The translations under genes were made by a program, and so were the position numbers. From the NCBI GenBank assembly GCA_937922795.1, contig CALAJK010000028.1, positions 1 through 64,000 of the forward strand: DNA of 64,000 bases, read 5' to 3'. This document shows, piece after piece, positions 25,609-43,606 of the stretch (position 1 is its first letter; each line of letters begins with the position of its first letter). The notes under the pieces are model-generated. The model saw only the letters and a program-made list of their open reading frames with translations, had not been told where the DNA came from and ran no database searches. Source of the DNA: an uncultured Anaerolineae bacterium. Its GTDB lineage: Bacteria > Chloroflexota > Anaerolineae > Aggregatilineales > Phototrophicaceae.

Positions 25609-28600
25609 ATGAAATCGCTGTTCAGCCTGTTCACTGAGTTCTCACTGCGTTTCCGCGCCATTATCTTAGCTCTCGTCGTCGTCTTCGTCGTGCTGGGTGT
25701 GATCGCAGTTACACAGCTTCAGCAGGAACTGCTGCCGTCCATTGCTTTCCCACAAACGGTCATTCTGGCACAGGCTTCCGGCATGTCTACCGATGAAGTG
25801 TTAGAAGTGCTGACGCGCCGCCTAGAATCAGCCCTTGATCAGATTGAACCGATCATCAATATCGAGTCGACCACAACCGGCGCGTTTGGGAGCGTCATCA
25901 TCGCTCGCAACGACTTCGGCGTCGATCAAACCAAGCTTCAGGCCAGCATCCGCAGTGCCTTAGACCAGGTCTGGCTACCTCAGCGCCGGATTGAACCGCC
26001 TGACGGCCAGGAGGACGCAGGCTATGCTCGCGCCCTGCTAGCAGATATTACGCCGGACGTTCTGATTTATCTGAACGAAAAATCCCCCGGCTTCTTGCTT
26101 CAATTGTCCCCGAATGTCTGGTCGGCGCTCTCTGATGACACCATCAGCGATTTACTCGCCTATCTGGCCGGCCAGGTCAAGAAAACGAACGAAGGTCAAA
26201 CGGCGCTTCAGAATCTGGTCAGACAACAACTGGTTCCCAACCTCGAAGCCCTGGACGTTGTGGCGCGCGTAACGGTCAGCGGCGGCCAGTCGCTGCCAGG
26301 CGAAAACAACCAACCAGCGCCAGCAGCGGCTGCCGACCCAACCAGCCTGCTGCTAGAGTTGCCCGCCGAAGTCTGGCGCGTCGTTGGCTCACGCGTTGGC
26401 CTGGGCGAGGAATTAGACGAGCGAGCAGTTGAAACGCTGCGTCAAGCCTCCGTCGCCGTTCCAACGCAGCCGCCCCCCCTGCCCTCATCCTGGCAGCGCG
26501 ACGGCTTTCACGACGCCAGCGATCTTTTGGAGATGGAAAACCTGACGCGCAGCGCCGCCGCCGTCATCAATGCGTTCGCAGAGACCGGTCGTATCGTCGG
26601 CGCGCTGGGACAAACCGATGATTTGACGCCTGAAATCATCACCAAGATGCTTGAGCTGCAGCCGTCGCTCGCGCGGTATTTCAAGGCCGAGCACCTGGTT
26701 GCGATGCCCCAAGCTGCTTTTGAAGCTCTGCCGGATGATTTCATCGCCAATCTCGATGGCTTCACGCGCGATGAACTGGCGGCCAAAGCCCTGGCGGCCA
26801 GCATTACCGGCCAGGATATCGAACCGAAACCCGTCAACCTGCCGTCCGCCTGGCGCATCTCACCGCCTCAGCTCATCAGCTTCAGCTTCGACGACATTCC
26901 TCTAGCCAGCTTCAGCGTCGCCAGCGCCGCGCCTGATCAACAGCTGGCGGCTGCCGCCGCGGTAGCGCAAAGAGAAGAAGAGAAACCGGCCGCCACGCCC
27001 GCGCCTGAGCCGCGCCCCAACACCGATGTACTGCCGGAGGGGCCGGCGCTGCCCCCATTTTTCAGCCTTCTGGGCTTGGCTTTTGGCGTTGAGATGAACT
27101 CTGCCGACGACCTGATCAACCTGCAGCTCCCAGACAACCTGGCGGCTCAGTTCGGCGGCAGTGCCTTACGGGCGGCCGACTTGCTCAATTTTTTGATGCT
27201 CCTCCGCGACCCCGCGGCGCTGCCGCCCGGCATCAACCTGCCGCCCCTGCTCAGCAATCTGGACGTGAACGCGCTCATCGGCTCCATCAGTCCAGAAGCT
27301 GTGGCGTTTCTGGCCGCCAATGATCCCACCTTTCTACCCAATCTCGCCGATGACGTCTTCAATGCCTTTTCGGACGGCGTACTTGAACGCCCAGAGGTTG
27401 CCCCGCCGCTGGATGACGCCTGGAACACGCTCGCCAATCGTCCACAATTTGCTGACAGACCGCTGCGCACTGCGGCCGATCTACTGGCGCTCGGCAATGG
27501 CCGCGCTTCAACCGTGCTGAATACCATCAATCGAGCAGTGCCAGAGGCATTCACCGGGTATGAAGTGCGGCTGTTTGACAGCTTGAGCGTGGCCGCCGTT
27601 CGCTATCTGGTACTGCAGGAGCCAGATTTCCTGCAGAACCTCGAAACCGATGTGCTGACTAAGCTGTCGCCGGCGGTGTTGTCTCGCTTCCAGGAACAGC
27701 TCACGTCGATACTGGACGGCGACGCCGCCGAGGCCGTGCAAGCCATCGCAATGGGCGAACGACCTTCGGCGGCGCAGCGGTTGGCGGCGCGCTACCAGCG
27801 CAACGTGCCTGAAGGCGATCCCACTGCTCCCCCTCTCAACCCTGATTGGAAGTTCGTGGGCGATTTCCTGTCTGTCGAGCTGGACACCGCCGACGACTTC
27901 TTCCGATTTTTCCCAAGTGTGACCGCTTTCTTGAACAACCTGTTCGACAGCCCGCAGGGGATCGCCTTTGCCCCTAACCTGTTCGGCAGGCTGCCGGTGG
28001 ATGCGGCGCGCTACATGGCGCGGCGCGACCCGCAGTTGTTCGACAACCTGCGTATCGAAGCGCTGCAGCTGCTGACGCCCGAAGTTCTGCAAGCGCTGCC
28101 CCAGTCCGTGCGCGATCGCGCCGCTTCCGACGGCGAGCCTTTTGTCCCGACTAACAGCATCACCCGCACGAATGGCAGCAGCAGCCTGCTCGTGACCATC
28201 TACAAGAAAGCGGGCACGAACACAGTCGCCGCGTTCCACACTGTGGCCGACGCTATCCGCGATTTGGATGCCCGCAATGACACGATCCAAACGAATGTGG
28301 TGTTCGAGCAGGCCAGCTTCATCGAGGAATCGATCAGCGGCGTCGCCCGCGAAGGAGGTCTAGGGGGCATTTTTGCCGTCATTGTGATCCTGGTCTTTCT
28401 CAGCGCCGGCGTCTGGTCTGGCCGCGCCCGCCGCGCTACAGGCATCATCCTGATAGTCATCTTCTTAACGCTGCTGGCCATCGTGGTCGGCTCAGGGCTG
28501 GAAGCCGCCGGCGGCGATATCGGGCGAGCGTTTGACCAAGCTGATGTCGTGGTGCGAGTCCTGCTGCTGCTGGGCGCAGTGATCGGCCTGCTGATCTTTT

Positions 28601-30492
28601 TGTGGCCAGGAACGCTGCCCTACCCGGCCTGGCGCAGTACATTAGTCGTGGCCATCAGCATCCCGCTGTCGCTGTGCATGGCGCTGGCCGTCATGAATTG
28701 GGTACCGCCCTTCGTGCATCAACTATTAGCCCCCGCCGCCGAGACTTCGCCGCTGATCGGTTTCCTCATCCGCCTGTTCCCCGCCAGCGTCACGATCAAC
28801 ATCATGACGCTCTCTGGCTTGACCGTGGCCATCGGCCGCGTCGTGGATGACTCGATCGTCGTGTTGGAGAACATCTTCCGCGAAATTCAAGCCGGCGGCG
28901 ACGCACGCCGCGCCATCATCATCGGCACGCGCGATGTATCCGTAGCCATCTTCGCCGCCACCGTGATCACTGTGGTCGTCTTCCTGCCGCTGGGGTTGAC
29001 CGGCGGCATCATCAGCGAGTTTTTTCTGCCCTTTGGTCTAGCCGTCACCTATGCGCTGCTGTCATCCTTCATCGTCGCCATCACAGTGGTGCCGGTGCTG
29101 GCGTATCTCTTTATCACGCCGGAGGAAGCCGCTGCTGAGGGTCACCGGGAAGGCTTCCTGGAACGCATCTACCTGCCTGTGCTGCGCTGGTCGCTCGGAA
29201 AACGGATCAACCGCGGCATCGTTTTGGGATCAGCCGCTTTGAGCATGGTCATTGGCCTGGGGCTGTTTGCCGCGCGGCCAACAACTTTTCTGCCTGAGCT
29301 GGGTGAGCCGCAGATTTCCGTGAGCGTCAACCTGCCCAGCGGCACTAAGCTCATCGAGACGAACGCCAAAGTCAAGGAATTTGAGGCCTACATCAAATCC
29401 GCCATACCGGAACAGGAGTTGAAGACCTACCAGACAATCGTCGGCAGCGGCGGCGCGAACCTGCAAACGCTGATCGGCGGCAGCAACCGCGTCACCGAGA
29501 ACATCGCCAGCATCACGATCGCCATCGAGTCCCGCGATCAACTCGACCGCTGGGCGCAGACCCTACGCGCCGAAGCCGAGAGGATCTTCGGGCCGAACTA
29601 CGTCACCGTATCAGCGGCGTCGATCAGCGAACAGGGCTTCGGCGGTTTTGCCTTAGTCTTGTCAGGCGATCAAGACGACTTGAACGCCATCAACCAGAAG
29701 ATCATCGACACGTTGAATGCTGTCCCAGGGCTCACCAATGTCTCCAGCAATCTGCAAGCCGTCGCCAGCGCAGGCGGGGATAACGGTCCGACGACGCTCA
29801 TTCGGATTGATGGCGAGTCGGCGCTGCGTTTCACCGGCGAGCTGGAGACTGAAAACACGCTGGGCGTTACCCGTCAGGCGATCGAAGCCATTCGCGCCCT
29901 GCCCGATTTGCCGCCGGGGTTGAAAGTCAGCCAGGGCTTTGAGTCGCAGCTTCAAACGGAAGGTTTTCAAAGCCTGTTCGTGGCGATGGGCATCGCCATC
30001 GTCATCGTCGTCATCATCTTGGTCTTCACCTTTGGCTCGCTGGTACACTGGTTAGACATCATCCTCAGTATCGCGGTCGCGCCGGTCGGCGCCGCTGTGC
30101 TGCTGACCCTCACGAACCGGGTGCTGGGCATCTCAGCCATGATTGGGCTGCTCATGCTCATCGGCATCGTCGTCACCAATGCTGTCGTGCTCATCGATCG
30201 CGTTCAAGCCAACCGTCGCGAACGAGCGATGAACGTTCGCGATGCGCTGATCGAGGCGGGCGGGCGGCGGCTGCGCCCCATCTTGATGACCGCGCTCGCC
30301 ACGATCTTCGCTTTGATGCCGCTGGCCGTGGGCTTGTCTAAAGGCGCTATCATCGCCGCTGAACTCGGCACGGTCGTCATCGGCGGCCTCTTCAGCAGCA
30401 CGCTGCTGACCTTGATCGTGGTCCCGGTTGCCTACATGCTGCTGGATCCGCTCCACCGACGGCTGGCGAAACTCGTTGGCCGGGGTCAATGA
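25609..30492 (+). CDS. Giant RND-superfamily transporter with repeat-rich extracytoplasmic insert
   Basis: A 1,627-residue HAE1/AcrB-like permease; relatives are usually about 1,000-1,100. TM1 spans residues about 15-35, followed by a recognisable porter start (SGMSTDEVLEVLTRRLESAL). From about 140 to 840 the sequence is unlike AcrB and contains repeats. The porter fold resumes with TVAAFHTVADAIRDL. TM2 begins near 925; two extra hydrophobic segments separate it from TM3. TM4 carries GRVVDDSIVVLENIFREI, the proton-relay segment. The second half is conventional and ends with TM10-12 (GIVVTNAVVLIDRVQANRR). No membrane-fusion or TolC-like gene is adjacent. In a probably single-membraned Chloroflexota cell it may export lipids or drugs, or act in envelope assembly (inference). 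GAGG lies about ten bases before the ATG. Confidence 0.85.
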   Translation: MKSLFSLFTEFSLRFRAIILALVVVFVVLGVIAVTQLQQELLPSIAFPQTVILAQASGMSTDEVLEVLTRRLESALDQIEPIINIESTTTGAFGSVIIARNDFGVDQTKLQASIRSALDQVWLPQRRIEPPDGQEDAGYARALLADITPDVLIYLNEKSPGFLLQLSPNVWSALSDDTISDLLAYLAGQVKKTNEGQTALQNLVRQQLVPNLEALDVVARVTVSGGQSLPGENNQPAPAAAADPTSLLLELPAEVWRVVGSRVGLGEELDERAVETLRQASVAVPTQPPPLPSSWQRDGFHDASDLLEMENLTRSAAAVINAFAETGRIVGALGQTDDLTPEIITKMLELQPSLARYFKAEHLVAMPQAAFEALPDDFIANLDGFTRDELAAKALAASITGQDIEPKPVNLPSAWRISPPQLISFSFDDIPLASFSVASAAPDQQLAAAAAVAQREEEKPAATPAPEPRPNTDVLPEGPALPPFFSLLGLAFGVEMNSADDLINLQLPDNLAAQFGGSALRAADLLNFLMLLRDPAALPPGINLPPLLSNLDVNALIGSISPEAVAFLAANDPTFLPNLADDVFNAFSDGVLERPEVAPPLDDAWNTLANRPQFADRPLRTAADLLALGNGRASTVLNTINRAVPEAFTGYEVRLFDSLSVAAVRYLVLQEPDFLQNLETDVLTKLSPAVLSRFQEQLTSILDGDAAEAVQAIAMGERPSAAQRLAARYQRNVPEGDPTAPPLNPDWKFVGDFLSVELDTADDFFRFFPSVTAFLNNLFDSPQGIAFAPNLFGRLPVDAARYMARRDPQLFDNLRIEALQLLTPEVLQALPQSVRDRAASDGEPFVPTNSITRTNGSSSLLVTIYKKAGTNTVAAFHTVADAIRDLDARNDTIQTNVVFEQASFIEESISGVAREGGLGGIFAVIVILVFLSAGVWSGRARRATGIILIVIFLTLLAIVVGSGLEAAGGDIGRAFDQADVVVRVLLLLGAVIGLLIFLWPGTLPYPAWRSTLVVAISIPLSLCMALAVMNWVPPFVHQLLAPAAETSPLIGFLIRLFPASVTINIMTLSGLTVAIGRVVDDSIVVLENIFREIQAGGDARRAIIIGTRDVSVAIFAATVITVVVFLPLGLTGGIISEFFLPFGLAVTYALLSSFIVAITVVPVLAYLFITPEEAAAEGHREGFLERIYLPVLRWSLGKRINRGIVLGSAALSMVIGLGLFAARPTTFLPELGEPQISVSVNLPSGTKLIETNAKVKEFEAYIKSAIPEQELKTYQTIVGSGGANLQTLIGGSNRVTENIASITIAIESRDQLDRWAQTLRAEAERIFGPNYVTVSAASISEQGFGGFALVLSGDQDDLNAINQKIIDTLNAVPGLTNVSSNLQAVASAGGDNGPTTLIRIDGESALRFTGELETENTLGVTRQAIEAIRALPDLPPGLKVSQGFESQLQTEGFQSLFVAMGIAIVIVVIILVFTFGSLVHWLDIILSIAVAPVGAAVLLTLTNRVLGISAMIGLLMLIGIVVTNAVVLIDRVQANRRERAMNVRDALIEAGGRRLRPILMTALATIFALMPLAVGLSKGAIIAAELGTVVIGGLFSSTLLTLIVVPVAYMLLDPLHRRLAKLVGRGQ
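26041..28113 (+). repeat. Degenerate protein repeats inside the RND gene
   Basis: Encodes residues about 145-835 of the transporter. A motif of the form A-x-Y-L-x4-P-x-F-L-x-N-L-x3-V-L-x2-L-x-P recurs near residues 148-180, 563-595, 662-695 and 798-832, with a weaker copy near 353-383. A second element (PPL-x3-W, then TADDLL or similar) precedes several copies, near residues 288, 482, 598 and 741, giving composite units of roughly 115-195 residues. The repeat exists at protein level; I see no long exact DNA repeat. Confidence 0.65.
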
Positions 30493-30586: not shown

Positions 30587-31807
30587 CTATTGAGCCGGAT
30601 TCAACTCCGGCCGGGTGGGGATGAGATCCAGCCGCTCACCCACAACCTTAAACGCGCGCAGCGCCTGTTCCAGGTGCTCGCGGCGATGCGTCGCTGTGTA
30701 GCTCGTGCGCAGCAGCGCCCCATTCGGCGGCGTCGCCGGCGGCACGACTGGGTTAGTATAGACGCCTTCTTCGATGAGCGCATTCCAGGCCAAAGCCGTG
30801 TGGAAGTCATCGCCCAAGATGACCGGGATGATCGGCGTGCAGCTCGTGCCCGTGTTGTAGCCCAGATTGACCAGTCCCTCGCGCATGAAATTCGCGTTGT
30901 CCCACAGCGTCTGCACGTGTTGGGGTTCCGTCTCCATGATCTCCAGCGCCGCCAGCGCCGCCGCCGCATTCGGGGCGGGCAGCGCCGCCGAGAAGATCAA
31001 CGCGCGCGCCTTGTGCTGAATGTAGTAGATAACATCGGCATCGCCGGCGATGAAACCGCCGATCGAAGCGAAGCTTTTGCTGAAAGTCCCCATCGTCAGA
31101 TCAACCTGATCGGACAGTCCGAAGTGAGCCGCCGTGCCGCGGCCGCCGCCGGTCACCCCCATGCCGTGCGCGTCGTCCACCATCAGACGCGCCCCGTACT
31201 TCTTGCAAACGGCGGCGATCTCCGGCAGCGGCGCGATGTCGCCGCTCATGCTGTAGACGCCGTCCACGATCACCAACCGCCCCGCATCATCCGGCAGCCG
31301 GCTGAGGACGCTTTCCAGGCTCTCGACGTTGTTGTGCCGGAATCGCTTGATCTCGCCCTGGCTCATGGTGCAGCCATCAACGATGCTGGCGTGATCTTCT
31401 TTGTCCAGGATGACGTAGTCGCCCTTGCCCACCAAGGACGAGATCGTGCCCACATTAGTTTGATAGCCGGTGGAGAACACCAGCGCCGCTTCTTTGCCGA
31501 CAAAACGCGCTAGCCGGCGTTCAAGCTCCAAATGCAGCTCCAGCGTGCCGTTGAGGAAGCGCGACCCGGTGACACTTGTCCCATACCGGCGCACGGCATC
31601 AATCGCCGCCTGACGGACGCGGGGATCTGTCGTCAGGCCCAGGTAATTATTCGAGCCTAGCATGATCACCTGTTTGTTTTCGAAGACGGCGGTGACGCCT
31701 TCCGTTTCGCTGAGGGCGCGGAAGTAGGGATACATGCCGATTGAAGCCGCATCCTTGGCGCGAACTATGGTCTCATCTTTCTCGATCTTATCAAACAGAT
31801 CAGCCAC
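30587..31807 (-). CDS. Alpha-oxoamine synthase, serine palmitoyltransferase-like
   Basis: A 406-residue PLP-dependent alpha-oxoamine synthase, a family that condenses an amino acid with an acyl-CoA. MGTFSKSFASIGG holds the PLP Lys, DDAHGMGVTG is the cofactor Asp region, and KEDHASIVDG contains the ring-stacking His. YPYFRALSE, LGSNNYLGLTTDPRV and TGSRFLNGTLELH resemble bacterial serine palmitoyltransferase of the Bacteroidetes type more than glycine C-acetyltransferase or BioF (judged from memory). The GTG at 31807 is chosen because AAGGGAG lies seven bases upstream; an in-frame ATG 23 codons earlier lacks this. No biotin or sphingolipid genes are adjacent, so the product is an inference. It ends at a strong hairpin. 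Confidence 0.75.
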   Translation of the reverse strand: MADLFDKIEKDETIVRAKDAASIGMYPYFRALSETEGVTAVFENKQVIMLGSNNYLGLTTDPRVRQAAIDAVRRYGTSVTGSRFLNGTLELHLELERRLARFVGKEAALVFSTGYQTNVGTISSLVGKGDYVILDKEDHASIVDGCTMSQGEIKRFRHNNVESLESVLSRLPDDAGRLVIVDGVYSMSGDIAPLPEIAAVCKKYGARLMVDDAHGMGVTGGGRGTAAHFGLSDQVDLTMGTFSKSFASIGGFIAGDADVIYYIQHKARALIFSAALPAPNAAAALAALEIMETEPQHVQTLWDNANFMREGLVNLGYNTGTSCTPIIPVILGDDFHTALAWNALIEEGVYTNPVVPPATPPNGALLRTSYTATHRREHLEQALRAFKVVGERLDLIPTRPELNPAQ

Positions 31808-32094
31808 GAATGGGCTCCCTTCTACACAATATTCACACAACTCACGGCGGTGAATGTCGAGTTGTGTCTCCAACATAAACGAAATGGAACAATCACACCT
31901 TTAAACAACACGCGACTGAAGGTCTGCGTTACGTCTGTAGGTGGTGATAATTTCACGAATTTAACCGGCTTTGACGATTTTTGCAAACCTTTCGCATTCC
32001 GAACTCCGTCACAAAACCTTGCGTCAGACTGCCCAGACCGTTAAAATGTCGGCTTGATCGCTAGATAGCGTGTGCGACCGGAGCAAAACGTAGC

Positions 32095-33413: not shown

Positions 33414-33437
33414 TTCTCCGCTGCTAAAGTGTGCTGC

Positions 33438-34739
33438 ATGAACGCTCAACATTCCTCTCGCTTACCTGGTTTCTACAAGCGCAGCCTGCCAGAACGCGCC
33501 GCCATCGTGGCGGAGTGGGCTGGCTTGACGCCCGAGGAACAAGCTGTTTTGCTCGGTGTCAGCGGTCTCAACGCCGCCCAGGCTGACCATATGATCGAAA
33601 ATGCCATCGGTGTGTACGGACTGCCGATGGGCATAGCCACCAACTTTCTCATCAACGATCAGGACTATTTAGTCCCGATGGTGATCGAAGAACCTTCGGT
33701 GGTGGCGGCTGTCAGCAATGCCGCCCGGCTGTTCCGCGCCGGCGGCGGCTTCATCACATCGAGCGATGAGCCGCTCATGATCGGACAAATTCAAGTCCTA
33801 GATCTGGCCGATGTTTATGTAGCAGCGGGCGCTGTCATGGCGCAGCGCGATGCGCTGCTGCGCCAGGTGGATGAAATCGGCGGCAGCATCGTCAAACATG
33901 GCGGCGGCGCGCGCGATCTTCAGGTACGCCCAATTCTGGACACGCCGGTCGGCCCCATGTTGATCGTACACCTGATCTATGACACACGCGACGCCATGGG
34001 CGCGAACGCGGTCAACACTGCTGTCGAACATCTCGCGCCGCAGATCGAGACGATCACCGGCGGACGGGTCAATCTGCGCATCCTCAGCAACCTGGCAGAC
34101 CAACGCAAAGCCCGCGCCGAAGGCATGATCCCTGCCGGCGAATTGGCCACCGAGAGGATCACCAGCGAAGACGCGGTACAGGCTATCATCGAAGCCGGCA
34201 TCTTCGCCGAAGTGGATCCCTACCGGGCCACCACCCACAACAAGGGCATTCTAAATGGGATTGACGCCGTCGTCATCGCCACCGGCAACGATTGGCGCGC
34301 CATCGAAGCCGGCGCGCACGCCTATGCTGCCCGTGACGGCCGCTACACCAGCCTGACCCAGTGGTGGAAAGACGAGCAGGGAAACCTGCGCGGCGCGATC
34401 GAGCTGCCGCTGGCGGTGGGCATCGTGGGCGGAGCCACCCGGGTTCACCCGGCGGCGCAGGTGGCGCTGAAGATTTTGGGCGTGCAGTCCGCCCGGCAGC
34501 TCGCCGAAGTGATCGCCGCAGTCGGCCTGGCGCAAAACCTGGCGGCCATGCGAGCGCTGGCCACCGAAGGCATTCAGCGCGGTCATATGCGTATGCACGC
34601 GCGCCAGATCGCCATCGCCGCTGGTGCAAGCGGCGACTTGGTGAACCGGGTCGTGCAGGCCATGATTGAAGACAATACGATTCGCCTGGAGCGCGCCAAA
34701 GAACTGGTGCAACAGTTCAAACGCGCCGGCTCAAACTGA
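33438..34739 (+). CDS. Class II hydroxymethylglutaryl-CoA reductase
   Basis: A 433-residue HMG-CoA reductase of the class II (Pseudomonas mevalonii-like) type, with no membrane segment. It interconverts HMG-CoA and mevalonate. Catalytic residues by family alignment are Glu in VIEEPSVVAA (84/85), Lys in TTHNKGILNGID, Asp in IATGNDWRA and His in GHMRMHARQIA. ENAIGVYGLPMGIA is the substrate loop and DTRDAMGANAVNT lies in the dinucleotide region, which suggests NAD(H) use (inference). Next to HMG-CoA synthase it should act in the biosynthetic direction. The ATG at 33438 is preferred to a GTG three codons earlier; neither has a good ribosome site. It is followed by HMG-CoA synthase after 33 bp. 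Confidence 0.95.
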   Translation: MNAQHSSRLPGFYKRSLPERAAIVAEWAGLTPEEQAVLLGVSGLNAAQADHMIENAIGVYGLPMGIATNFLINDQDYLVPMVIEEPSVVAAVSNAARLFRAGGGFITSSDEPLMIGQIQVLDLADVYVAAGAVMAQRDALLRQVDEIGGSIVKHGGGARDLQVRPILDTPVGPMLIVHLIYDTRDAMGANAVNTAVEHLAPQIETITGGRVNLRILSNLADQRKARAEGMIPAGELATERITSEDAVQAIIEAGIFAEVDPYRATTHNKGILNGIDAVVIATGNDWRAIEAGAHAYAARDGRYTSLTQWWKDEQGNLRGAIELPLAVGIVGGATRVHPAAQVALKILGVQSARQLAEVIAAVGLAQNLAAMRALATEGIQRGHMRMHARQIAIAAGASGDLVNRVVQAMIEDNTIRLERAKELVQQFKRAGSN

Positions 34740-34772: not shown

Positions 34773-35858
34773 ATGACGATGAATGGATTGAATCCTGCTA
34801 ACTACTCCCTTCTGATGCGGCCAGACCGGCAGGTAGGCATCATCGGTTACGGCGCTTACATCCCGCGCTACCGGCTGCCCGGCGCTGAGATCGCCCGCAT
34901 CTGGACGAACGGCCTGGGCGGCTCGCCTGTCAAAGAGAAGGCCGTCGCCGGGCTGGATGAAGACGTGACGACCATGTCGATCGAGGCGGCGCGCAATGCC
35001 CTGGCGCGCGCCGGCATCGACCCGCGTTTGATCAGGGCTGTCTGGGTGGGCAGTGAAAGCCATCCCTACGCCGTCAAACCCACCAGCACGATCGTCGCCG
35101 AGAGCATCGGCGCGTCGCCCAACATCCAGGCTGCCGATTGGGAATTCGCCTGTAAGGCGGGCACCGAAGCCGTGCAGGCTTCCATCGGCTTGGTCGGCAG
35201 CGGCATGGCCGCTTATACCCTCAGCATCGGCATGGACACTGCCCAAGGGCGGCCGGGCGACGCGCTCGAATACACGGCCGCCTCCGGCGGAGCCGCTTAC
35301 ATCATCGGCCCAGCAGATGAGGCCTGCGCCATCTACCAGGGCAGCTACAGCTTCGTCACTGACACACCCGATTTCTGGCGGCGCGCCGATGAAACGTACC
35401 CAAGCCACGGTGACCGCTTCACCGGCGAACCCGCCTACTTCAACCATACGCTGTCCGCGGCCCAGACTCTGATGGACACGATGGGCACGCGCGCTTCGGA
35501 CTACACGTTTGCCGTCTTTCACCAGCCCAATGTGAAATTTCCCTCGCGCGCAGCCGAGATATTGGGGTTCACGCCTGACCAGATCAAGACCGGCCTCCTG
35601 GCCAACGAGATCGGCAATGTCTATTCCGGGTCGTGCATGTTGGGACTGACCGCCATTCTAGACGTGGCCAAGCCCGGCGACCGCATCTTGATGGTCAGCT
35701 ACGGCAGCGGCGCAGGCTCAGACGCCTTCGATATCCTGGTAACAGAGCGCATCACACAAGTTCAAGGGCGCGCGCCCAAAACGCGCGACTACATCAATCG
35801 CCGCACGGTCATTGACTATGCAACCTACTGCCGTTATCGCGGCAAGCTAAAGGACTGA
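34773..35858 (+). CDS. HMG-CoA synthase, archaeal type
   Basis: A 361-residue HMG-CoA synthase of the compact archaeal kind. It condenses acetyl-CoA with acetoacetyl-CoA. The Glu-Cys-His triad can be placed at Glu95 ([11 protein letters not shown]), Cys127 ([10 protein letters not shown]) and His250 ([16 protein letters not shown]); the 32- and 123-residue spacings match the archaeal enzyme as I remember it. [21 protein letters not shown] is the characteristic opening, after about 20 extra residues. GGAGG lies nine bases before the ATG. The thiolase homologue follows after 9 bp. In archaea this protein forms a complex with thiolase and a DUF35 protein that channels acetoacetyl-CoA; both partners are encoded here but look altered, while this enzyme looks intact. 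Confidence 0.95.
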
Positions 35859-35867
35859 GGGCAAACT

Positions 35868-37019
35868 ATGCGCGAAGTGGCCATCGTCGGTATTGGACAG
35901 ACGCCAGTCGGCGAACACTGGGACACCAGCCTGCGCATGCTGGCAGCCGAGGCTGTACGCGCCGCTCTACAAGATGCCGGTGTGAAGACGGCTGACGCTC
36001 TATACGTCGGCTGCGGTTTCAGCGCGCCTTTCAGCAGCCAGCTTCATCTGGGAGCGCTGGTGGCGGATTTCGCTGGTCTGCGAGGAATTGAGGCGTACAG
36101 TGTCGAGGCCGCCGACGCTTCTGGCGGCGCAGCGCTGCGCACGGGTTTCCTGGCAGTGGCCTCCGGAGCCGTTGAGACCGCGCTGGTGCTCGGCGTAGAG
36201 AAAGCCACAGATACTGTGGGCAGCGCCCGCATTCAAGCGCGTAACACCAGCCTCGACGCTGATTTTGAAGCTGCCCACGGCGCTACGCAGTCAGCGCTGG
36301 CCGCCCTGCTCATGCGCCGCTATATGCACGAGTACGGCCTGGAGTTGAGCGCGTTTGAAGGCTTCAGCATCAACGCGCATGCCAACGGCAGCCGCAACCC
36401 AAATGCGATGTTCCGCAACCTGATCAAGCCGGGCAGCTTCGCCCGGGCGCCTATGGTAGCCGATCCGATCAATCTGTTCGACGGCGCGCCCGACGCTGAT
36501 GGAGCGGCCGCCGTCGTGCTGACGACGGTGGAACGCGCCGCCGATATGGTCCCTCAACCCGTGCGGCTCACCGCCAGCGCTGTCGCCACTGACAGCTTGA
36601 CGCTGCATGACCGTCCTGATCTGCTAATTCTGCGCGCCGCCCAGCAGTCAGCCGCGCGCGCTTATGCCCAGGCAGGCATCGAACCTAACGCCGTCAGCTT
36701 GTTCGAACTGCACGATGAATACACTATTCTAGCGGCGCTGTCGCTGGAGGCAGCTGGATTCGCCGAACGCGGCCAGGGCTGGAAGCTGGCGCAGGACGGA
36801 GCCATCGGCTTGCAGGGTTCTATCCCGATCAGCACCTTTGGCGGGTTGAAAGCTCGCGGCAATCCGATCGGCGCAACTGGCATCTACCAGGCGGTGGAGG
36901 CTTGCTTGCAGCTCCGGGGTCAGGCCGGCGACAATCAGGTCAGCGGCGCGCGGACGGCGCTGATCCAGAACTTGGGCGGGCTGGGTGCGACCGCGATCAC
37001 CCATATTCTTCAGGCATAG
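35868..37019 (+). CDS. Archaeal-type thiolase homologue lacking catalytic Cys and His
   Basis: A 383-residue protein collinear with archaeal acetoacetyl-CoA thiolase (SCP2-thiolase-like). The nucleophile motif, expected as VEAACASG, reads VEAADASGG with Asp83. The GHP motif reads GGLKARGNPIGATG with Asn332 instead of His. The C-terminal HNxGG motif reads QNLGG (Gln367). His282 in ELHDEYTI is retained. Fold-defining glycines and loops are intact and there is no frameshift, so it is not an obvious pseudogene. Without the Cys nucleophile, ordinary thiolysis or Claisen condensation should be impossible; a scaffolding, channelling or different catalytic role is inferred. It is tightly coupled to HMG-CoA synthase, 9 bp upstream. 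Confidence 0.85.
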   Translation: MREVAIVGIGQTPVGEHWDTSLRMLAAEAVRAALQDAGVKTADALYVGCGFSAPFSSQLHLGALVADFAGLRGIEAYSVEAADASGGAALRTGFLAVASGAVETALVLGVEKATDTVGSARIQARNTSLDADFEAAHGATQSALAALLMRRYMHEYGLELSAFEGFSINAHANGSRNPNAMFRNLIKPGSFARAPMVADPINLFDGAPDADGAAAVVLTTVERAADMVPQPVRLTASAVATDSLTLHDRPDLLILRAAQQSAARAYAQAGIEPNAVSLFELHDEYTILAALSLEAAGFAERGQGWKLAQDGAIGLQGSIPISTFGGLKARGNPIGATGIYQAVEACLQLRGQAGDNQVSGARTALIQNLGGLGATAITHILQA

Positions 37020-37199: not shown

Positions 37200-37376
37200 A
37201 TGCAGATTTCCAGACACTGGCGTTTGAACGCGCAGCGGTATCGTCTTCAGGGTGTGCGGTACGAGAATGGTGAAGTCAGCTTGCAGCCCCGCCCCCAACC
37301 ATCACTCGACGAAATGACGCGAGAATCGCGGTCACAAGCCCTCAAAGCTGAGCCGGCGCTGACCGCCGGGCGCTGA
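37200..37376 (+). CDS. DUF35 N-terminal half, cysteine-free remnant of a zinc ribbon
   Basis: A 58-residue ORF with a strong ribosome site (GAGGAG eight bases upstream). The opening MQISRHWRLNAQRYRLQGV matches the N-terminal helix of DUF35 proteins, which bind the thiolase/HMG-CoA synthase complex. In normal DUF35 proteins a four-Cys zinc ribbon follows; here RYENGEVSLQPRPQPS occupies that place with no Cys. The ORF ends at a TGA that is in frame with the OB-fold ORF; only three codons (Arg-Gly-Arg) separate the TGA from the next ATG. It is either a genuine two-subunit arrangement, a readthrough site or a recent nonsense mutation. The surrounding sequence looks well maintained. Confidence 0.65.
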   Translation: MQISRHWRLNAQRYRLQGVRYENGEVSLQPRPQPSLDEMTRESRSQALKAEPALTAGR

Positions 37377-37385
37377 CGAGGACGT

Positions 37386-37694
37386 ATGAGCGAACTTCGC
37401 AAACAAGTCGAAATTCAGGCTGAGCAGTTCGCCTTCGCCGGCACGGGGGAAGTCTACAGCTTCACCACCGTGCTGCAAGCGCCGGAGAACTTCGAGGAGC
37501 AAGCGCCTTACACGCTGGCGCTCATCAAGCTGGATGAGGGTCCCATGATCACCGCGCAGCTCACAGACCTCGACGGGCCGGTAGCGATTGGCGACCGCGT
37601 GGAAATGGTCACGCGCAAGCTGACGACCGAAGGCCCTCGCGGTATGATCGTGTACGGGTATAAATTCCGCAAAATCCTGCCGCGCTCATCCTGA
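37386..37694 (+). CDS. DUF35 OB-fold protein (acyl-CoA-associated)
   Basis: A 102-residue OB-fold half of a DUF35 protein. GTGEVYSFTTVLQAPENF, QAPYTLALIKLDEGPMITA and the closing GMIVYGYKFRKILP are the family hallmarks. In archaea DUF35 bridges acetoacetyl-CoA thiolase and HMG-CoA synthase. Here it starts at its own ATG with GAGGA a few bases upstream, in the same frame as the preceding 58-residue ORF. Its place after HMG-CoA reductase, HMG-CoA synthase and the thiolase homologue supports the same complex. It is followed by a hairpin and then the convergent pyrophosphatase gene. Confidence 0.85.
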   Translation: MSELRKQVEIQAEQFAFAGTGEVYSFTTVLQAPENFEEQAPYTLALIKLDEGPMITAQLTDLDGPVAIGDRVEMVTRKLTTEGPRGMIVYGYKFRKILPRSS

Positions 37695-37745: not shown

Positions 37746-39863
37746 CTATACCAGCGGCGTAGTCGCCAGCAGCGGCGCAATCACCAGCGCCACGATCGCC
37801 AGCAGCTTGAGCAGAATATTTAACGATGGCCCAGCAGTGTCCTTAAATGGATCGCCCACCGTGTCGCCGACCACGGCTGCCTTGTGCGCGTCAGACCCTT
37901 TGCCGCCCAGGTGACCAGCCTCGATGCGTTTCTTCGCGTTATCCCAGGCCCCGCCCGCATTCGCCATCATCACCGCTAGCATGAAGGCTGATACCAATGC
38001 GCCAATCAACATGCCGACCAAAGTCGTTGGCCCGACAAACTGGCCGATTATGTTATCGCGTCCGATCAGCGACAAGACCGCAACAGCAATTGGAACGACG
38101 ACGGCGATCAAACCTGGCAAGATCATCTGCCGGATCGCGCTGTCGGTGCTGATCCCCACACAGGTCTCATAGTCTGGCTCAGCCTTGCCCTCCATCAAAC
38201 CAGAGATTTCACGAAACTGGCGGCGCACTTCCTCGACGATGCGCTGCGCCGCATTCCCCACGGCCAGCATGGCTAGCGCGCTGAACAGATACGGAAGCAC
38301 CGCCCCCAAGAATAGACCCGTGATAAAACGCGGATCCAGCACATCGATGCGCAGGATGGCAGCGCCGGCATCAGCGCTTGCGCCCATCAGCGCAGTGACG
38401 AAAGCCGCGTTCAGCGCCAGCGCGGTCATAGCGGCGCTGCCAATGGCAAAGCCCTTGCCCGTTGCGGCGGTCGTGTTGCCCAAGCTGTCCAGCGCATCGG
38501 TGCGCGTGCGCACTTCTTTGCCCAACCCAGCCATCTCAGCGATTCCGCCCGCATTATCTGCTACTGGCCCGTAAGCATCTGTCGCCAGCGTAATGCCCAA
38601 CGTCGCCAGCATCCCGACCGCCGCCATCGCCACGCCGTACAGACCGCCCGTCGCGGCGGAAATCAGCGTCACGACCACGACGATCACCACTGGGGCTACC
38701 GTGCTGAACATGCCGAGCGCCAGGCCGCGGATGATGACGATCGCCGGGCCACCGTTCGCGCTTTCTGAGAGCTGTTGAGTCGGACGATAGCTGTCAGCCG
38801 TGAAGTACTCGGTGAAGTAGCCGATCAGCACGCCGCCTACCAGCCCGCTGAGCGTGGCGATCACCACATTCCAGCCGAGATCCAGCGCCAGCCCCAGCAC
38901 GACAACGGCCAGAGCGACCAGCGCGCTGGCCGTGTATACGCCGCGCCGCAGGCTGCCGAGCAGCATTTCTTGCGTGGCGCTCTCCTGAGTGCGGACCAGG
39001 AAAGTACAGCCCATGCTGATCAGAATGCCCACCGCCGCCACCAGCACTGGAAACACCTGCCCAGCCAGCGTCTTGTCTGGCGCCAGCCCAGCGCCCAGCG
39101 TCGCCAGGGTGATAGCAGCGATGATCGAGCTCGCATAGCTCTCAAATAGGTCTGAACCCATGCCGGCGACATCGCCGACGTTGTCGCCGACGTTGTCCGC
39201 GATGACGGCTGGATTGCGCGGATCGTCCTCCGGGATCCCGGCTTCCGTCTTGCCAACCAGATCGGCGCCCACGTCGGCCGCTTTGGTGTAGATGCCGCCG
39301 CCGACACGGGCGAAGATGGCGATCGACGTGCCGCCGAACCCGAACCCGGCCAGGGCGCTCACTGCTTCTCTGGCAGGCAGTTGGCTCGCGAACAACAGGA
39401 ACAGCAGACTGATACCCAGCAGCGCCAGCGAAACGACGGTTGTGCCCATCACTGTGCCGCTGGCAAACGCGACTCGCAGTCCACTGTTCAAACTCTTGGA
39501 AGCGGCTTGAGCCGTGCGCACATTGGCGCGGACAGCGGTATACATGCCGATGTAACCGGCTAAACCGGAGGCCAGCGCGCCGCTGACGAAAGCGATCGGC
39601 GTCCACAAGCTCATGCCTGAGCCGGGGATCAGACCCAGCACAATGAGCAGGAGCGTGACGACAGCCACTAGGACGACAACTGCCCGGTATTCCCGCCGCA
39701 AAAATGCCTGAGCGCCGCGCTGAATGGCGGACGCAATCTGACGCATGCGGTCATTGCCCGACTCTTGGGATATCACCCAACGCAGTTGATACGCAGCAAA
39801 ACCGATACCGACTAAACTGGCAGCCAGCGCAATCCCATTCGCGCTGCTCAACAAAAACTCCAT
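37746..39863 (-). CDS. hppA: Membrane ion-pumping pyrophosphatase, K+-dependent type
   Basis: A 705-residue M-PPase with about 16 membrane helices that couples PPi hydrolysis to cation export. Catalytic loops are intact: [41 protein letters not shown] and [19 protein letters not shown]. The signature [10 protein letters not shown] has Ala (near residue 463) where K+-independent enzymes have Lys, which indicates K+ dependence. The gate helix reads DLFESYASS, with Glu at the position shared by Na+ pumps and some H+ pumps, so the ion cannot be settled. The start has GGGAGAGAGGG upstream. It is divergent from a second M-PPase. Confidence 0.95.
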
Positions 39864-40262
39864 ACCCTCTCTCCCTAGTTTGCGTCAAAGAATCCGCAGT
39901 TGCTCGCTGGTGCGCTGTCTTCGCAAAAGTTCAAAGCGATGAGCGACCGCCGCACACTCGAAAACCGCAGATGCCGAAAACCAGCGCTAAGCATACCAGA
40001 ACACGTGGAATATTTCACTAAAACATTACAAAATCTTGCAAAATGATTAAGAAACACCCTGTCATTTGCAGGGGAATTTTCATGCTATTTGTTACGACAC
40101 GCCGCTTGACTCATCCCATACAATTATCAGCAGATTAAATTTCTGCGCTCACCCGATGCCTTCTGGCGCACGGGACCTCATCGCTGACACCACAGATCAC
40201 TGCACCAGGGAAGCACCGGGTTTTTGAGTGCTTGCTGGCTTTTGCTTGGAAGGATGAACGTC
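39864..40262. promoter_or_regulatory. 399-bp divergent region between the two M-PPase genes
   Basis: No gene is seen here. An AT-rich core lies at about 40010-40140. On the minus strand GTGAAA-17-TATGCT is a possible weak promoter for the K+-dependent gene. On the plus strand TTGACT lies at 40106-40111, but no good -10 box sits 16-18 bp downstream. GGAAGG just before 40254 is the ribosome site that sets the second start at 40263. Confidence 0.45.
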
Positions 40263-42911
40263 ATGCAAGCAATGCAAGGTATACAACCGTTCGAGCAAGT
40301 CATGATCCTCATCGTATTAGCCACGGCGTTCATTGCCTTGATCTATGCCTACTGGCTGGCGCGACAGACGTTCGCCGCCGACAAGGGCAGTCAGGCGATG
40401 CAGCGCATCTGGGGCTTCATCCGCGATGGCGCTAACGCATATCTGCGGACGCAGTTACGGACAATCGCCATCCTGATCGTCATCCTGACTATCGCGATGT
40501 TCTTGAGCGTGGCGCTAGTCAGGCCCACCGGTGAAGCAAATGAGCTCTTCTGCTCAGCCGAGGTGGAAAAGGCTTATGCCAGCGCCATTGCCGCCGGCAC
40601 TGGTTTGGAAGTCGAGGCAGTGACACAGCTTCTAGAAGACCGCACCCTCACGCCCAAACAGATCGCCAGTAATAACGGCTATGAAGAATTCAATCCGGAG
40701 CGCGTAGCGGCAGGCGTCGAGTGCGCCCCGGCCGTGACCGGCATCGCCATCGGCCGCGCGCTGGCGTTCGCGATGGGCGCGTCTTTCTCGGCCATGGTAG
40801 GTTTCATCGGCATGAACATGGCGGTGCAGGGTAATGTGCGCGTGGCGGCAGCCTCACGGCACAGCTTCAAACGTGCGCTGACCATAGCTTACCGCTCTGG
40901 CACGATTACCGGCATGCTCACCGACGGCCTGGGGCTGCTGGGCGGCACGATGATCTTCATCGTCTTCGGCAAAGCAGCGCCGGATGTGCTGCTCGGTTTT
41001 GGCTTCGGCGGCACGCTGCTAGCGCTGTTCATGCGCGTGGGCGGCGGCATCTACACCAAAGCGGCCGATGTAGGCGCTGACTTGGTCGGCAAGGTCGAAG
41101 CCGGTATGGAAGAAGACGATCCGCGCAATGCCGCTGTGATCGCCGACCTGGTGGGCGATAACGTCGGCGACTGCGCCGGTATGGCCGCCGACATCTTCGA
41201 AAGCTACGAGGTCACCATCGTCTCCAGCTTGATCCTTGGTCTGGCGCTGACTTCGCTCACCGGGCAGTTGTTCTGGATCGTGCTGCCGCTGCTGGTGCGC
41301 GGCATCGGCGTCATCAGCTCCATCGTCGGCACTTACATGGTCTCCGTCTGGCGTGTAGACGACGCCGAGGAAGCCATGTACAAGAGCTACGAAATTTCCA
41401 GCGCCATCACCATCGCCTCGACGTTCCTGCTGTCCGTGTTCTATGCTGGCGCTCAGGAGCCCAGCGGCGACATGCTAGCGCATCTATCGCTCGGTTCGCT
41501 GGTAGCCGTCGGCGTGGCGCTGGCGGTGACCTTCAACCCGCTCACCTCTTATGCTACCAGCGCCAAGAGCAAGCGCGTCCAGAACATCGCCAAGGCGACC
41601 GTGTTCGGCCCGGCGCTGGTCATCCTGGAGGGCGTCTCGCTGGGTTATCAGTCCAGCGTGTGGTCAGTCCTGGTGATCGTCGGCAGCATCGGCGCGTCCA
41701 TCCTGGTTTACAGCGTCACCTTCCCGGCCAACCTGGTTTTGCCTGTGTTCATCCTGGGCGTGGCGCTGGCCGTAGGGGCGATCATCCGCGGTTACCTGCG
41801 CAAAGACATCGTAGGGGGCATCTTCCTGGCGCTGTGGATCATGGTGGCTGCCCTGTACCTCATCAGCATGCGCGAAATCGATCTGGCGAATCGTTTCGTC
41901 TACACCCTGTTTGGCGTATCGCTGATCGGCGTCGGCATGCTCTCGCACACTGGCAACAACGTCAGCATGGACACCTTCGGCCCGATCTCTGACAACGCCA
42001 ACGGCATCGCCGAGCTGGCGGGCGAAGAGGACTTTTCGCCGCAGGCGCGGCAGATCATGGCCGATCTGGACGCGGCTGGCAATACGACGAAGGCGATCAC
42101 CAAAGGCATCGCCATCGGTTCGGCTGTCATCGCGGCGGTATCGCTGTTTGGGTCGTTCTTCATCGACATCAAACGGGTGGCGCCAGAGGGCATGGTCATC
42201 GAAGAGGTGATCAATCTCGCCAATCCGGTGGTCTTCATCGGCCTGCTGCTGGGCGGCGCGCTGCCGCTGCTGTTCGGCGGCCTGCTCATCAAGGCGGTCA
42301 ACCGCGCTGCGGGCTACATCATGGCTGAAGTGCGACGCCAACTGCGCATTCCGGAGATCATGAATAAGGAGCGTCCACCTGACTACGCGCAGTGCGTGAC
42401 CATCTCCACCCGCTCAGCGCAGGCCGAGCTCATCCCGCTGGGATTGATCGCCATCCTGGCGCCCATCGTGGTCGGCCTGCTGTTGAAGGAACAGGCGTTG
42501 GGCGGCTTCCTGGCCGGCGTCATCCTCTCCGGGCAGCTTCAAGCGGTGTTCATGGCCAACGCTGGCGGAGCCTGGGACAACGCCAAGAAATTCATCGAAG
42601 ACGGCAATTTGGGCGGCAAAGGCACCGATAACCACAAGGCCAGCGTCGTGGGCGATACGGTCGGCGACCCGTTCAAGGACACGGCCGGGCCGGCGCTGAA
42701 CCCCATGATCAAGGTGATGAACCTGGTGTCGCTCATCATGGCGCCTATCGTCGTCCAGACGCAGACGCCAGAGGCGACTGTGCCGGTGCTGATCTTCGTG
42801 ATCGTCGGCATCGCGCTCATCATCTGGTCGGTGCGTCGCAGCGACCGCGACGAGCAGGCGGAAGCGCCCATCCCAGCGGCAGCAACGGTTGAGCCTCAGC
42901 GCGTCGGCTAG
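40263..42911 (+). CDS. hppA: Membrane H+-pumping pyrophosphatase, K+-independent type
   Basis: An 882-residue M-PPase, longer than usual. The signature GNTTKAITKG has Lys610, the mark of K+-independent H+-PPases. Catalytic loops [40 protein letters not shown] and [20 protein letters not shown] are intact; the gate region reads DIFESYEVTIV. Extra length comes from a loop of about 60 residues after the second helix, bracketed by Cys97 and Cys154, and from a C-terminal tail after the last helix (DRDEQAEAPIPAAA). The ATG at 40263 is chosen because GGAAGG lies nine bases upstream; an ATG at 40254 is too close to it. It is followed by a strong terminator. Confidence 0.95.
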   Translation: MQAMQGIQPFEQVMILIVLATAFIALIYAYWLARQTFAADKGSQAMQRIWGFIRDGANAYLRTQLRTIAILIVILTIAMFLSVALVRPTGEANELFCSAEVEKAYASAIAAGTGLEVEAVTQLLEDRTLTPKQIASNNGYEEFNPERVAAGVECAPAVTGIAIGRALAFAMGASFSAMVGFIGMNMAVQGNVRVAAASRHSFKRALTIAYRSGTITGMLTDGLGLLGGTMIFIVFGKAAPDVLLGFGFGGTLLALFMRVGGGIYTKAADVGADLVGKVEAGMEEDDPRNAAVIADLVGDNVGDCAGMAADIFESYEVTIVSSLILGLALTSLTGQLFWIVLPLLVRGIGVISSIVGTYMVSVWRVDDAEEAMYKSYEISSAITIASTFLLSVFYAGAQEPSGDMLAHLSLGSLVAVGVALAVTFNPLTSYATSAKSKRVQNIAKATVFGPALVILEGVSLGYQSSVWSVLVIVGSIGASILVYSVTFPANLVLPVFILGVALAVGAIIRGYLRKDIVGGIFLALWIMVAALYLISMREIDLANRFVYTLFGVSLIGVGMLSHTGNNVSMDTFGPISDNANGIAELAGEEDFSPQARQIMADLDAAGNTTKAITKGIAIGSAVIAAVSLFGSFFIDIKRVAPEGMVIEEVINLANPVVFIGLLLGGALPLLFGGLLIKAVNRAAGYIMAEVRRQLRIPEIMNKERPPDYAQCVTISTRSAQAELIPLGLIAILAPIVVGLLLKEQALGGFLAGVILSGQLQAVFMANAGGAWDNAKKFIEDGNLGGKGTDNHKASVVGDTVGDPFKDTAGPALNPMIKVMNLVSLIMAPIVVQTQTPEATVPVLIFVIVGIALIIWSVRRSDRDEQAEAPIPAAATVEPQRVG

Positions 42912-42943
42912 GCATCTGTTCACGATCATTTCGCAGACTTTGG

Positions 42944-42975
42944 GCGGGGTGCAGGGGGCAACTTCTGCGCCCCGC
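42944..42975 (+). terminator. Rho-independent-type terminator of the second M-PPase gene
   Basis: An 11-bp stem with one G-U pair (GCGGGGTGCAG with CTGCGCCCCGC), a 10-nt loop, then TTCTTCATT. It lies 32 bp after the stop. Confidence 0.7.
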
Positions 42976-43060
42976 TTCTTCATTACAAATGTCCGCCCGC
43001 CGACTGCATTTTAGGCTATACTTGTGAGCAGACGTCTCTCTATACCGAATTGGGATAACC

Positions 43061-43606
43061 ATGTCGCTCCACCTATGGCATAATCTCTCGTCCGGCCCGA
43101 AACCGCCCGACATCATCTACGCCGTCGTCGAAGTTCCAAAAGGCAGCCAGAACAAATACGAGTACAGCAAGAGCGCCGGCGTGATCAAGCTCGACCGCGT
43201 GCTGTACAGCCCTCTGCATTATCCGGGTGATTACGGCTTCATCCCCCAATCCTACTACGGCGACGGCGATCCGCTGGACGTGCTGGTCATGATGGAAGAG
43301 GCCACTTTCCCCGGCTGTGTGATTGAGGCGCGCCCGCTAGGGATGCTGCGCCTGCTCGACCGCGGCCACAACGATGACAAAATCCTGGCCGTCCCATCAA
43401 CCGATCCCCACTACGACGACTTCCACGACATTGAGGATTTACCCAAACACTTCCCCAAAGCGGTCGAACACTTCTTCATCACCTACAAGCATCTTCAAGG
43501 CGCTGAGGTGACCAGCCAGGGATGGGTAGGAGCCGCCGAAGCCAAGCTGGCGATCCTGAACTCAATGCAGCTCTATCGCGACACTTTTCCGCCACAGCGC
43601 GTTTGA
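43061..43606 (+). CDS. ppa: Soluble inorganic pyrophosphatase (family I)
   Basis: A 181-residue family I PPase that hydrolyses cytoplasmic PPi without conserving energy. YSPLHYPGDYGFIPQSYYGDGDPLDVLV contains the family signature with the metal-binding acidic residues, and VPKGSQNKYEYSK holds the substrate-contacting Lys and Tyr. DDFHDIEDLP and HFFITYKHLQG complete the core. It lies 150 bp after the second membrane PPase gene beyond a terminator, so it probably has its own promoter. Three PPi-cleaving enzymes in under 6 kb is notable. Confidence 0.96.
   Translation: MSLHLWHNLSSGPKPPDIIYAVVEVPKGSQNKYEYSKSAGVIKLDRVLYSPLHYPGDYGFIPQSYYGDGDPLDVLVMMEEATFPGCVIEARPLGMLRLLDRGHNDDKILAVPSTDPHYDDFHDIEDLPKHFPKAVEHFFITYKHLQGAEVTSQGWVGAAEAKLAILNSMQLYRDTFPPQRV

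Follow-up and report, generated by a model that had tools for sequence, protein, structure and literature searches.

Thiolase and HMG-CoA synthase (HMGS) form a complex that is a clear case of direct hand-over of an intermediate in isoprenoid synthesis. In the archaeal complex, the CoA-binding interface is built by all three proteins, thiolase, HMGS and DUF35 (PMC6392133), DUF35 is the scaffold (PMC6996347), and the acetoacetyl chain moves between the active sites without release (PMC12329534). The active cysteine of the thiolase of M. thermolithotrophicus is Cys85 (PMC6392133). It is also known that the HMGS-like protein PhlA lacks Cys and Glu and is very likely required for a folded complex (PMC6392133), and that the steroid aldolase Sal has Gly in the column of the nucleophile Cys (PMC12329534). 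In Chloroflexota, enzymes of Roseiflexus castenholzii support a working mevalonate route (PMC3857490).

The window analysed here is a stretch of 64,000 nucleotides from an uncultured Anaerolineae bacterium of this phylum (contig CALAJK010000028.1). Its plus strand encodes HMG-CoA reductase (HMGR; 33435-34739; TIGR00532, 424 bits, cut-off 260), followed after 33 bases by an archaeal-type HMGS (34773-35858; TIGR00748, 533.6 bits, cut-off 353) and, after another 9 bases, by a thiolase-like ORF (35868-37019). The HMGS is intact at both its catalytic Cys (FACKAGT) and its catalytic His (FHQPN), residues that were kept in all 134 HMGS homologues read. Genes for the thiolase-like protein, HMGS and DUF35 all stand together, with DUF35 split into two ORFs. 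As a weak check of the lower mevalonate pathway, mevalonate kinase matches in this genome were below the cut-off. Upstream of the operon, the window encodes an RND permease of 1627 aa (25609-30492), which exceeds the usual profiles by about 600 aa and contains large extra regions, and a serine palmitoyltransferase-like/BioF-family PLP enzyme (30587-31876). Directly behind the operon, three pyrophosphatase genes lie side by side (37746-43606): two membrane-bound enzymes of different subtypes (37746-39863, minus strand; 40224-42911, plus strand) and a soluble inorganic pyrophosphatase (43061-43606).

The thiolase-like ORF has an intact frame of 383 aa. Its profile matches (PF22691, 150.8 bits, and PF00108, 52.9 bits, each above the cut-off; PRK06064, 416.5 bits, slightly below the cut-off of 420), together with its fold, place it in the SCP2/archaeal-type thiolase superfamily. 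The AlphaFold2 model (pLDDT 91.8) had its best structural match in the M. thermolithotrophicus thiolase 6ESQ_A (Z 62.8, rmsd 1.1, 381 residues aligned, 38% identity), so that the thiolase fold is predicted to be untouched, in agreement with the kept frame and fold motifs described in an earlier sequence-only reading. That reading had also proposed that the catalytic Cys and the His of the GHP motif were replaced. Both columns were confirmed by alignment with the thiolases of P. furiosus (7YVY; EAACASGG and RGHP) and M. thermolithotrophicus (6ESQ; VEAACASG and AGHA): the nucleophile column holds Asp83 (codon gac, 36114-36116, within VEAADASGG) and the GHP His column holds Asn332 (codon aat, 36861-36863, within GGLKARGNPIGATG). 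Neither column contains a Cys or a His in the window protein. Among the residues expected of an active thiolase (EC 2.3.1.9), only the His of the HDxF motif is present, as His282 in HDEY (36711-36713). Judged from the alignment, the residues for thiolase chemistry are lost. Gln367, which had been taken for a third lost catalytic residue, had to be dropped from the list, since the same motif occurs in intact relatives (TQNIGG in a paralogue of the same genome, QNIGG in P. furiosus); HNxGG is restricted to more distant Chloroflexota thiolases.

A sequencing or assembly error was ruled out as the source of the replacements, because Cys is absent from all 80 nearest loci in a public genome collection. 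The Cys/His columns of these loci were Asp/Asn in 65, Glu/Asn in 10, Asn/Asn in 2 and other pairs in 3. In a sample of 60 genomes of the class, mostly metagenome assemblies and enriched for the window's own order, an archaeal-type thiolase was found in 58. A Cys-less copy occurs in 36 of these 58; in 26 of the 36, no copy bears the Cys. The usual setting of the Cys-less gene is an HMGR-HMGS-thiolase-DUF35 operon, and its frame is intact in all relatives. The replacements are mostly Asp/Asn, with Glu/Asn, Gly/Asn, Gly/Phe, Gln/Asn, Gly/Asp and Glu/Asp also occurring (the columns of one genome, G208, being read via its near-identical relative G276); a few members of the class have lost Cys alone. 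Outside the class, in 12 genomes of other Chloroflexota families (f25, f35, f61 and f64), the operon copy mostly carries Gly in the Cys column, Thr or Ser in place of the HDxF His and Asp in place of the GHP His; the adjoining DUF35 lacks the zinc Cys4. One of these 12 genomes, G166, is a single contig of 100% estimated completeness, and all its archaeal-type thiolases are Cys-less.

A tree built with the catalytic columns removed contains one large Cys-less clade, which comprises 58 of 105 rows (SH-aLRT 93) and spans the class and other Chloroflexota families. Quick trees placed further Cys-less rows outside it (G361, G406, G403, G408, G411 and G011). Several independent losses of Cys are not claimed for these rows, nor is a convergent Asp/Asn in G361, since AU tests did not reject a single clade either for the core with G361 (p = 0.83) or for all operon Cys-less rows (p = 0.36). 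A further Cys-less lineage (L107, L108, L109 and L212) has Thr in the Cys column (AATATGAA), keeps GHP and shows GATA for GATG; no HMGS was found beside these thiolases at their loci.

The DUF35 partner of the window is encoded by two separate plus-strand ORFs. The first (37200-37376) encodes a 58-aa peptide that motif reading identified as a remnant of the N-terminal helix and zinc ribbon: HWRLNxQRYRLxG is kept, there is no Cys, and the four zinc ribbon cysteines of DUF35 are thus missing from the window. The peptide had no Pfam or NCBIfam match of its own. The second (37386-37694) encodes the C-terminal OB domain (OB_ChsH2_C; PF01796, 1.6e-19; 6ESQ chain E, 8.6e-17), the sole DUF35 OB domain found in this genome. 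Since the split peptide recurs in about 30 relatives, the two ORFs very probably represent genuine genes. A fused DUF35 with the zinc Cys4 was present in all 17 HMGS loci with an intact thiolase, and the zinc cysteines have been lost exclusively beside Cys-less thiolases. There, by automatic classes corrected by eye (including those of this window and G276), DUF35 was fused with zinc cysteines at 34 loci, split or fused without them at 46 and OB-only at 13; at a further 27, no DUF35 was seen in the retrieved stretch. In two genomes, G505 and G672 (L111 and L112), the operon reads HMGR-HMGS-DUF35N-DUF35C and contains no thiolase gene. Their DUF35 is split, its N part still has four cysteines, and an intact orphan thiolase is kept. 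Because these two genomes lack the Cys-less protein, it is dispensable where an intact orphan thiolase is present.

The Cys-less gene is under purifying selection, conserved and not decaying. Between the window and near relatives, dN/dS was 0.07-0.12 for the Cys-less gene, 0.06-0.08 for HMGS and 0.10-0.12 for HMGR (synonymous sites are near saturation in wider pairs, and closer pairs agree), which bears out the earlier suggestion that selection acts on the gene. The overall ranges were 0.04-0.08 for HMGS and 0.07-0.12 for HMGR, so that the Cys-less gene resembles its neighbour HMGR. Of 101 columns that are near-invariant in live thiolases, the Cys-less proteins conserve 68 at 90% or above. Twelve fall below half; Cys83 and His332 are among them, as are several columns of the 122-145 stretch, which probably lines the active site. 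Other residues are newly conserved in the Cys-less proteins, for example Asn332, Phe324 and Trp305. These data bear on the reading that the gene is a relic on its way to becoming a pseudogene. The loss of both catalytic residues would agree with it, as would the operons of G505 and G672, from which the gene is gone, but frames are intact in all relatives, dN/dS is low, the gene is retained across families and classes, and some residues are newly conserved within the clade, so that we regard decay as extremely unlikely.

The conserved residues also bear on a gain of function. In a large subclade of the class (110 Cys-less rows), Asp or Glu at position 83 (89%), His282 (95%) and Asn332 (94%) are conserved above the expectation from a pure release of constraint. 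Together they might constitute a new acid/base active site, one that catalyses a different acyl-CoA reaction in the mevalonate complex. The fold is kept, and Cys-free proteins of the thiolase fold can be enzymes (PMC12329534); aldol, hydration or hydrolysis reactions would be the candidates, by analogy with the aldolases Ltp2 and Sal, which share the thiolase fold. However, sister lineages have Gly83 with Phe or Asn332 in the same operon, and other families have Gly, Thr and Asp. No residue set is therefore common to the whole clade. The catalytic Tyr of Ltp2 and Sal (YDxF/YDxY) is likewise absent from the window protein, which has HDEY. Asp, Gly and Asn immediately ahead of the helix that follows position 83 may do no more than stabilise a site relieved of catalysis. 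A new reaction is thus an unlikely explanation, weaker than a pseudoenzyme.

A search of the window's own genome for a second intact thiolase gene, a check that the sequence-only reading had called for, recovered an archaeal-type paralogue (G000:C35) that is 58% identical to the window protein and has Cys, GHP and QNIGG. It is an orphan on contig 35, with neither HMGS nor DUF35 alongside. The genome also encodes three classical thiolases. At least one classical thiolase was found in all 28 tested genomes of the class with a Cys-less operon thiolase and in all 13 tested Cys-less genomes from other families, whereas it was missing from 4 of 18 genomes with an intact thiolase, all four of which keep the catalytic Cys (Fisher's exact test, relatedness ignored: p = 0.019). 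The presence of the paralogue would also suit a heterodimer in which the dead protein pairs with an intact archaeal-type thiolase and links it to HMGS, an arrangement modelled by analogy on ketosynthase/chain-length-factor pairs. Both partners are encoded in this genome and in nine more of the sample, among them its two genus mates G537 and G642. However, only Cys-less archaeal-type thiolases occur in G166 and in 26 of the 58 genomes sampled within the class, and such pairing therefore cannot be the general function. We consider a heterodimer, and with it the ketosynthase-like analogy, highly improbable.

The distribution of the genes across the class points to a link with HMGS. A homologue of the archaeal-type thiolase was found in 329 of 344 genomes of the class with HMGS and in 24 of 52 without it; the 15 HMGS genomes that lack a homologue are mostly fragmented or incomplete. 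Even where the linkage is broken (G487, G591, G609 and G689), the genome retains each of the three, the thiolase-like gene, HMGS and DUF35; in G487 and its relatives the Cys-less gene lies apart from HMGS and DUF35. The explanation that we favour is that the window protein is probably a pseudoenzyme, serving HMGS as a scaffold or as a subunit of the CoA pocket, and that acetoacetyl-CoA comes from other thiolases. Both halves had been proposed from the DNA alone. A pseudoenzyme supporting HMGS would be consistent with the clade-wide loss, the purifying selection, the intact HMGS and the co-retention with HMGS and DUF35. Synthesis of acetoacetyl-CoA elsewhere would be consistent with the intact paralogue and with the classical thiolases encoded by every Cys-less genome that was checked for them. 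The window protein would descend from the thiolase subunit of a thiolase-HMGS-DUF35 complex. Together with DUF35, it may hold HMGS in a complex and form part of a shared CoA pocket, while HMGS would use acetoacetyl-CoA from the orphan paralogue or the classical thiolases, as their presence suggests. Direct hand-over of acetoacetyl-CoA would then be uncoupled and the scaffold would persist. The distribution of the DUF35 forms suggests that the death of the thiolase came first, after which DUF35 could dispense with its zinc ribbon and become split.

Literature searches turned up no earlier description of a mevalonate operon with a dead thiolase. Across much of one phylum, the hand-over enzyme appears to be dead and the genes of the assembly are retained, which allows the purpose of the complex to be tested: channelling, folding of HMGS or binding of CoA. 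The annotation of the Cys-less gene as acetyl-CoA acetyltransferase would be wrong in these organisms, and models of their pathway need another source of acetoacetyl-CoA.

Among the closest described systems is the archaeal thiolase-HMGS-DUF35 complex (6ESQ). The same three families are present, the catalytic residues of HMGS are intact in both, the modelled fold of the window protein is nearly identical to that of the 6ESQ thiolase, and the 6ESQ DUF35 OB domain is homologous to the OB ORF of the window. In contrast to the archaeal complex, the thiolase Cys and His are replaced, and DUF35 is split and lacks the zinc cysteines. Direct hand-over of acetoacetyl-CoA should be impossible in the window system. 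The steroid aldolases Ltp2-ChsH2(DUF35) and Sal-Shy(DUF35) also combine a thiolase fold without the nucleophile Cys with DUF35, but they use a catalytic Tyr in YDxF/YDxY (PMC12329534), whereas the window protein, encoded in a mevalonate operon, reads HDEY at this motif. The thiolase-like protein ST0096 of Sulfolobus tokodaii (4YZO) has an SCP2/archaeal-type thiolase fold that lacks the nucleophile Cys, for which the alignment shows Ser; unlike the window protein, to which it is 30% identical, it keeps the GHP His. PhlABC (PpATase) of Pseudomonas protegens is a homologous trio of HMGS-like, DUF35 and thiolase-like proteins with one dead subunit. As far as the catalytic residues indicate, it would be the mirror case of this locus: PhlA is dead and the thiolase-like PhlC works, whereas in the window the thiolase-like protein would be dead and HMGS is intact.
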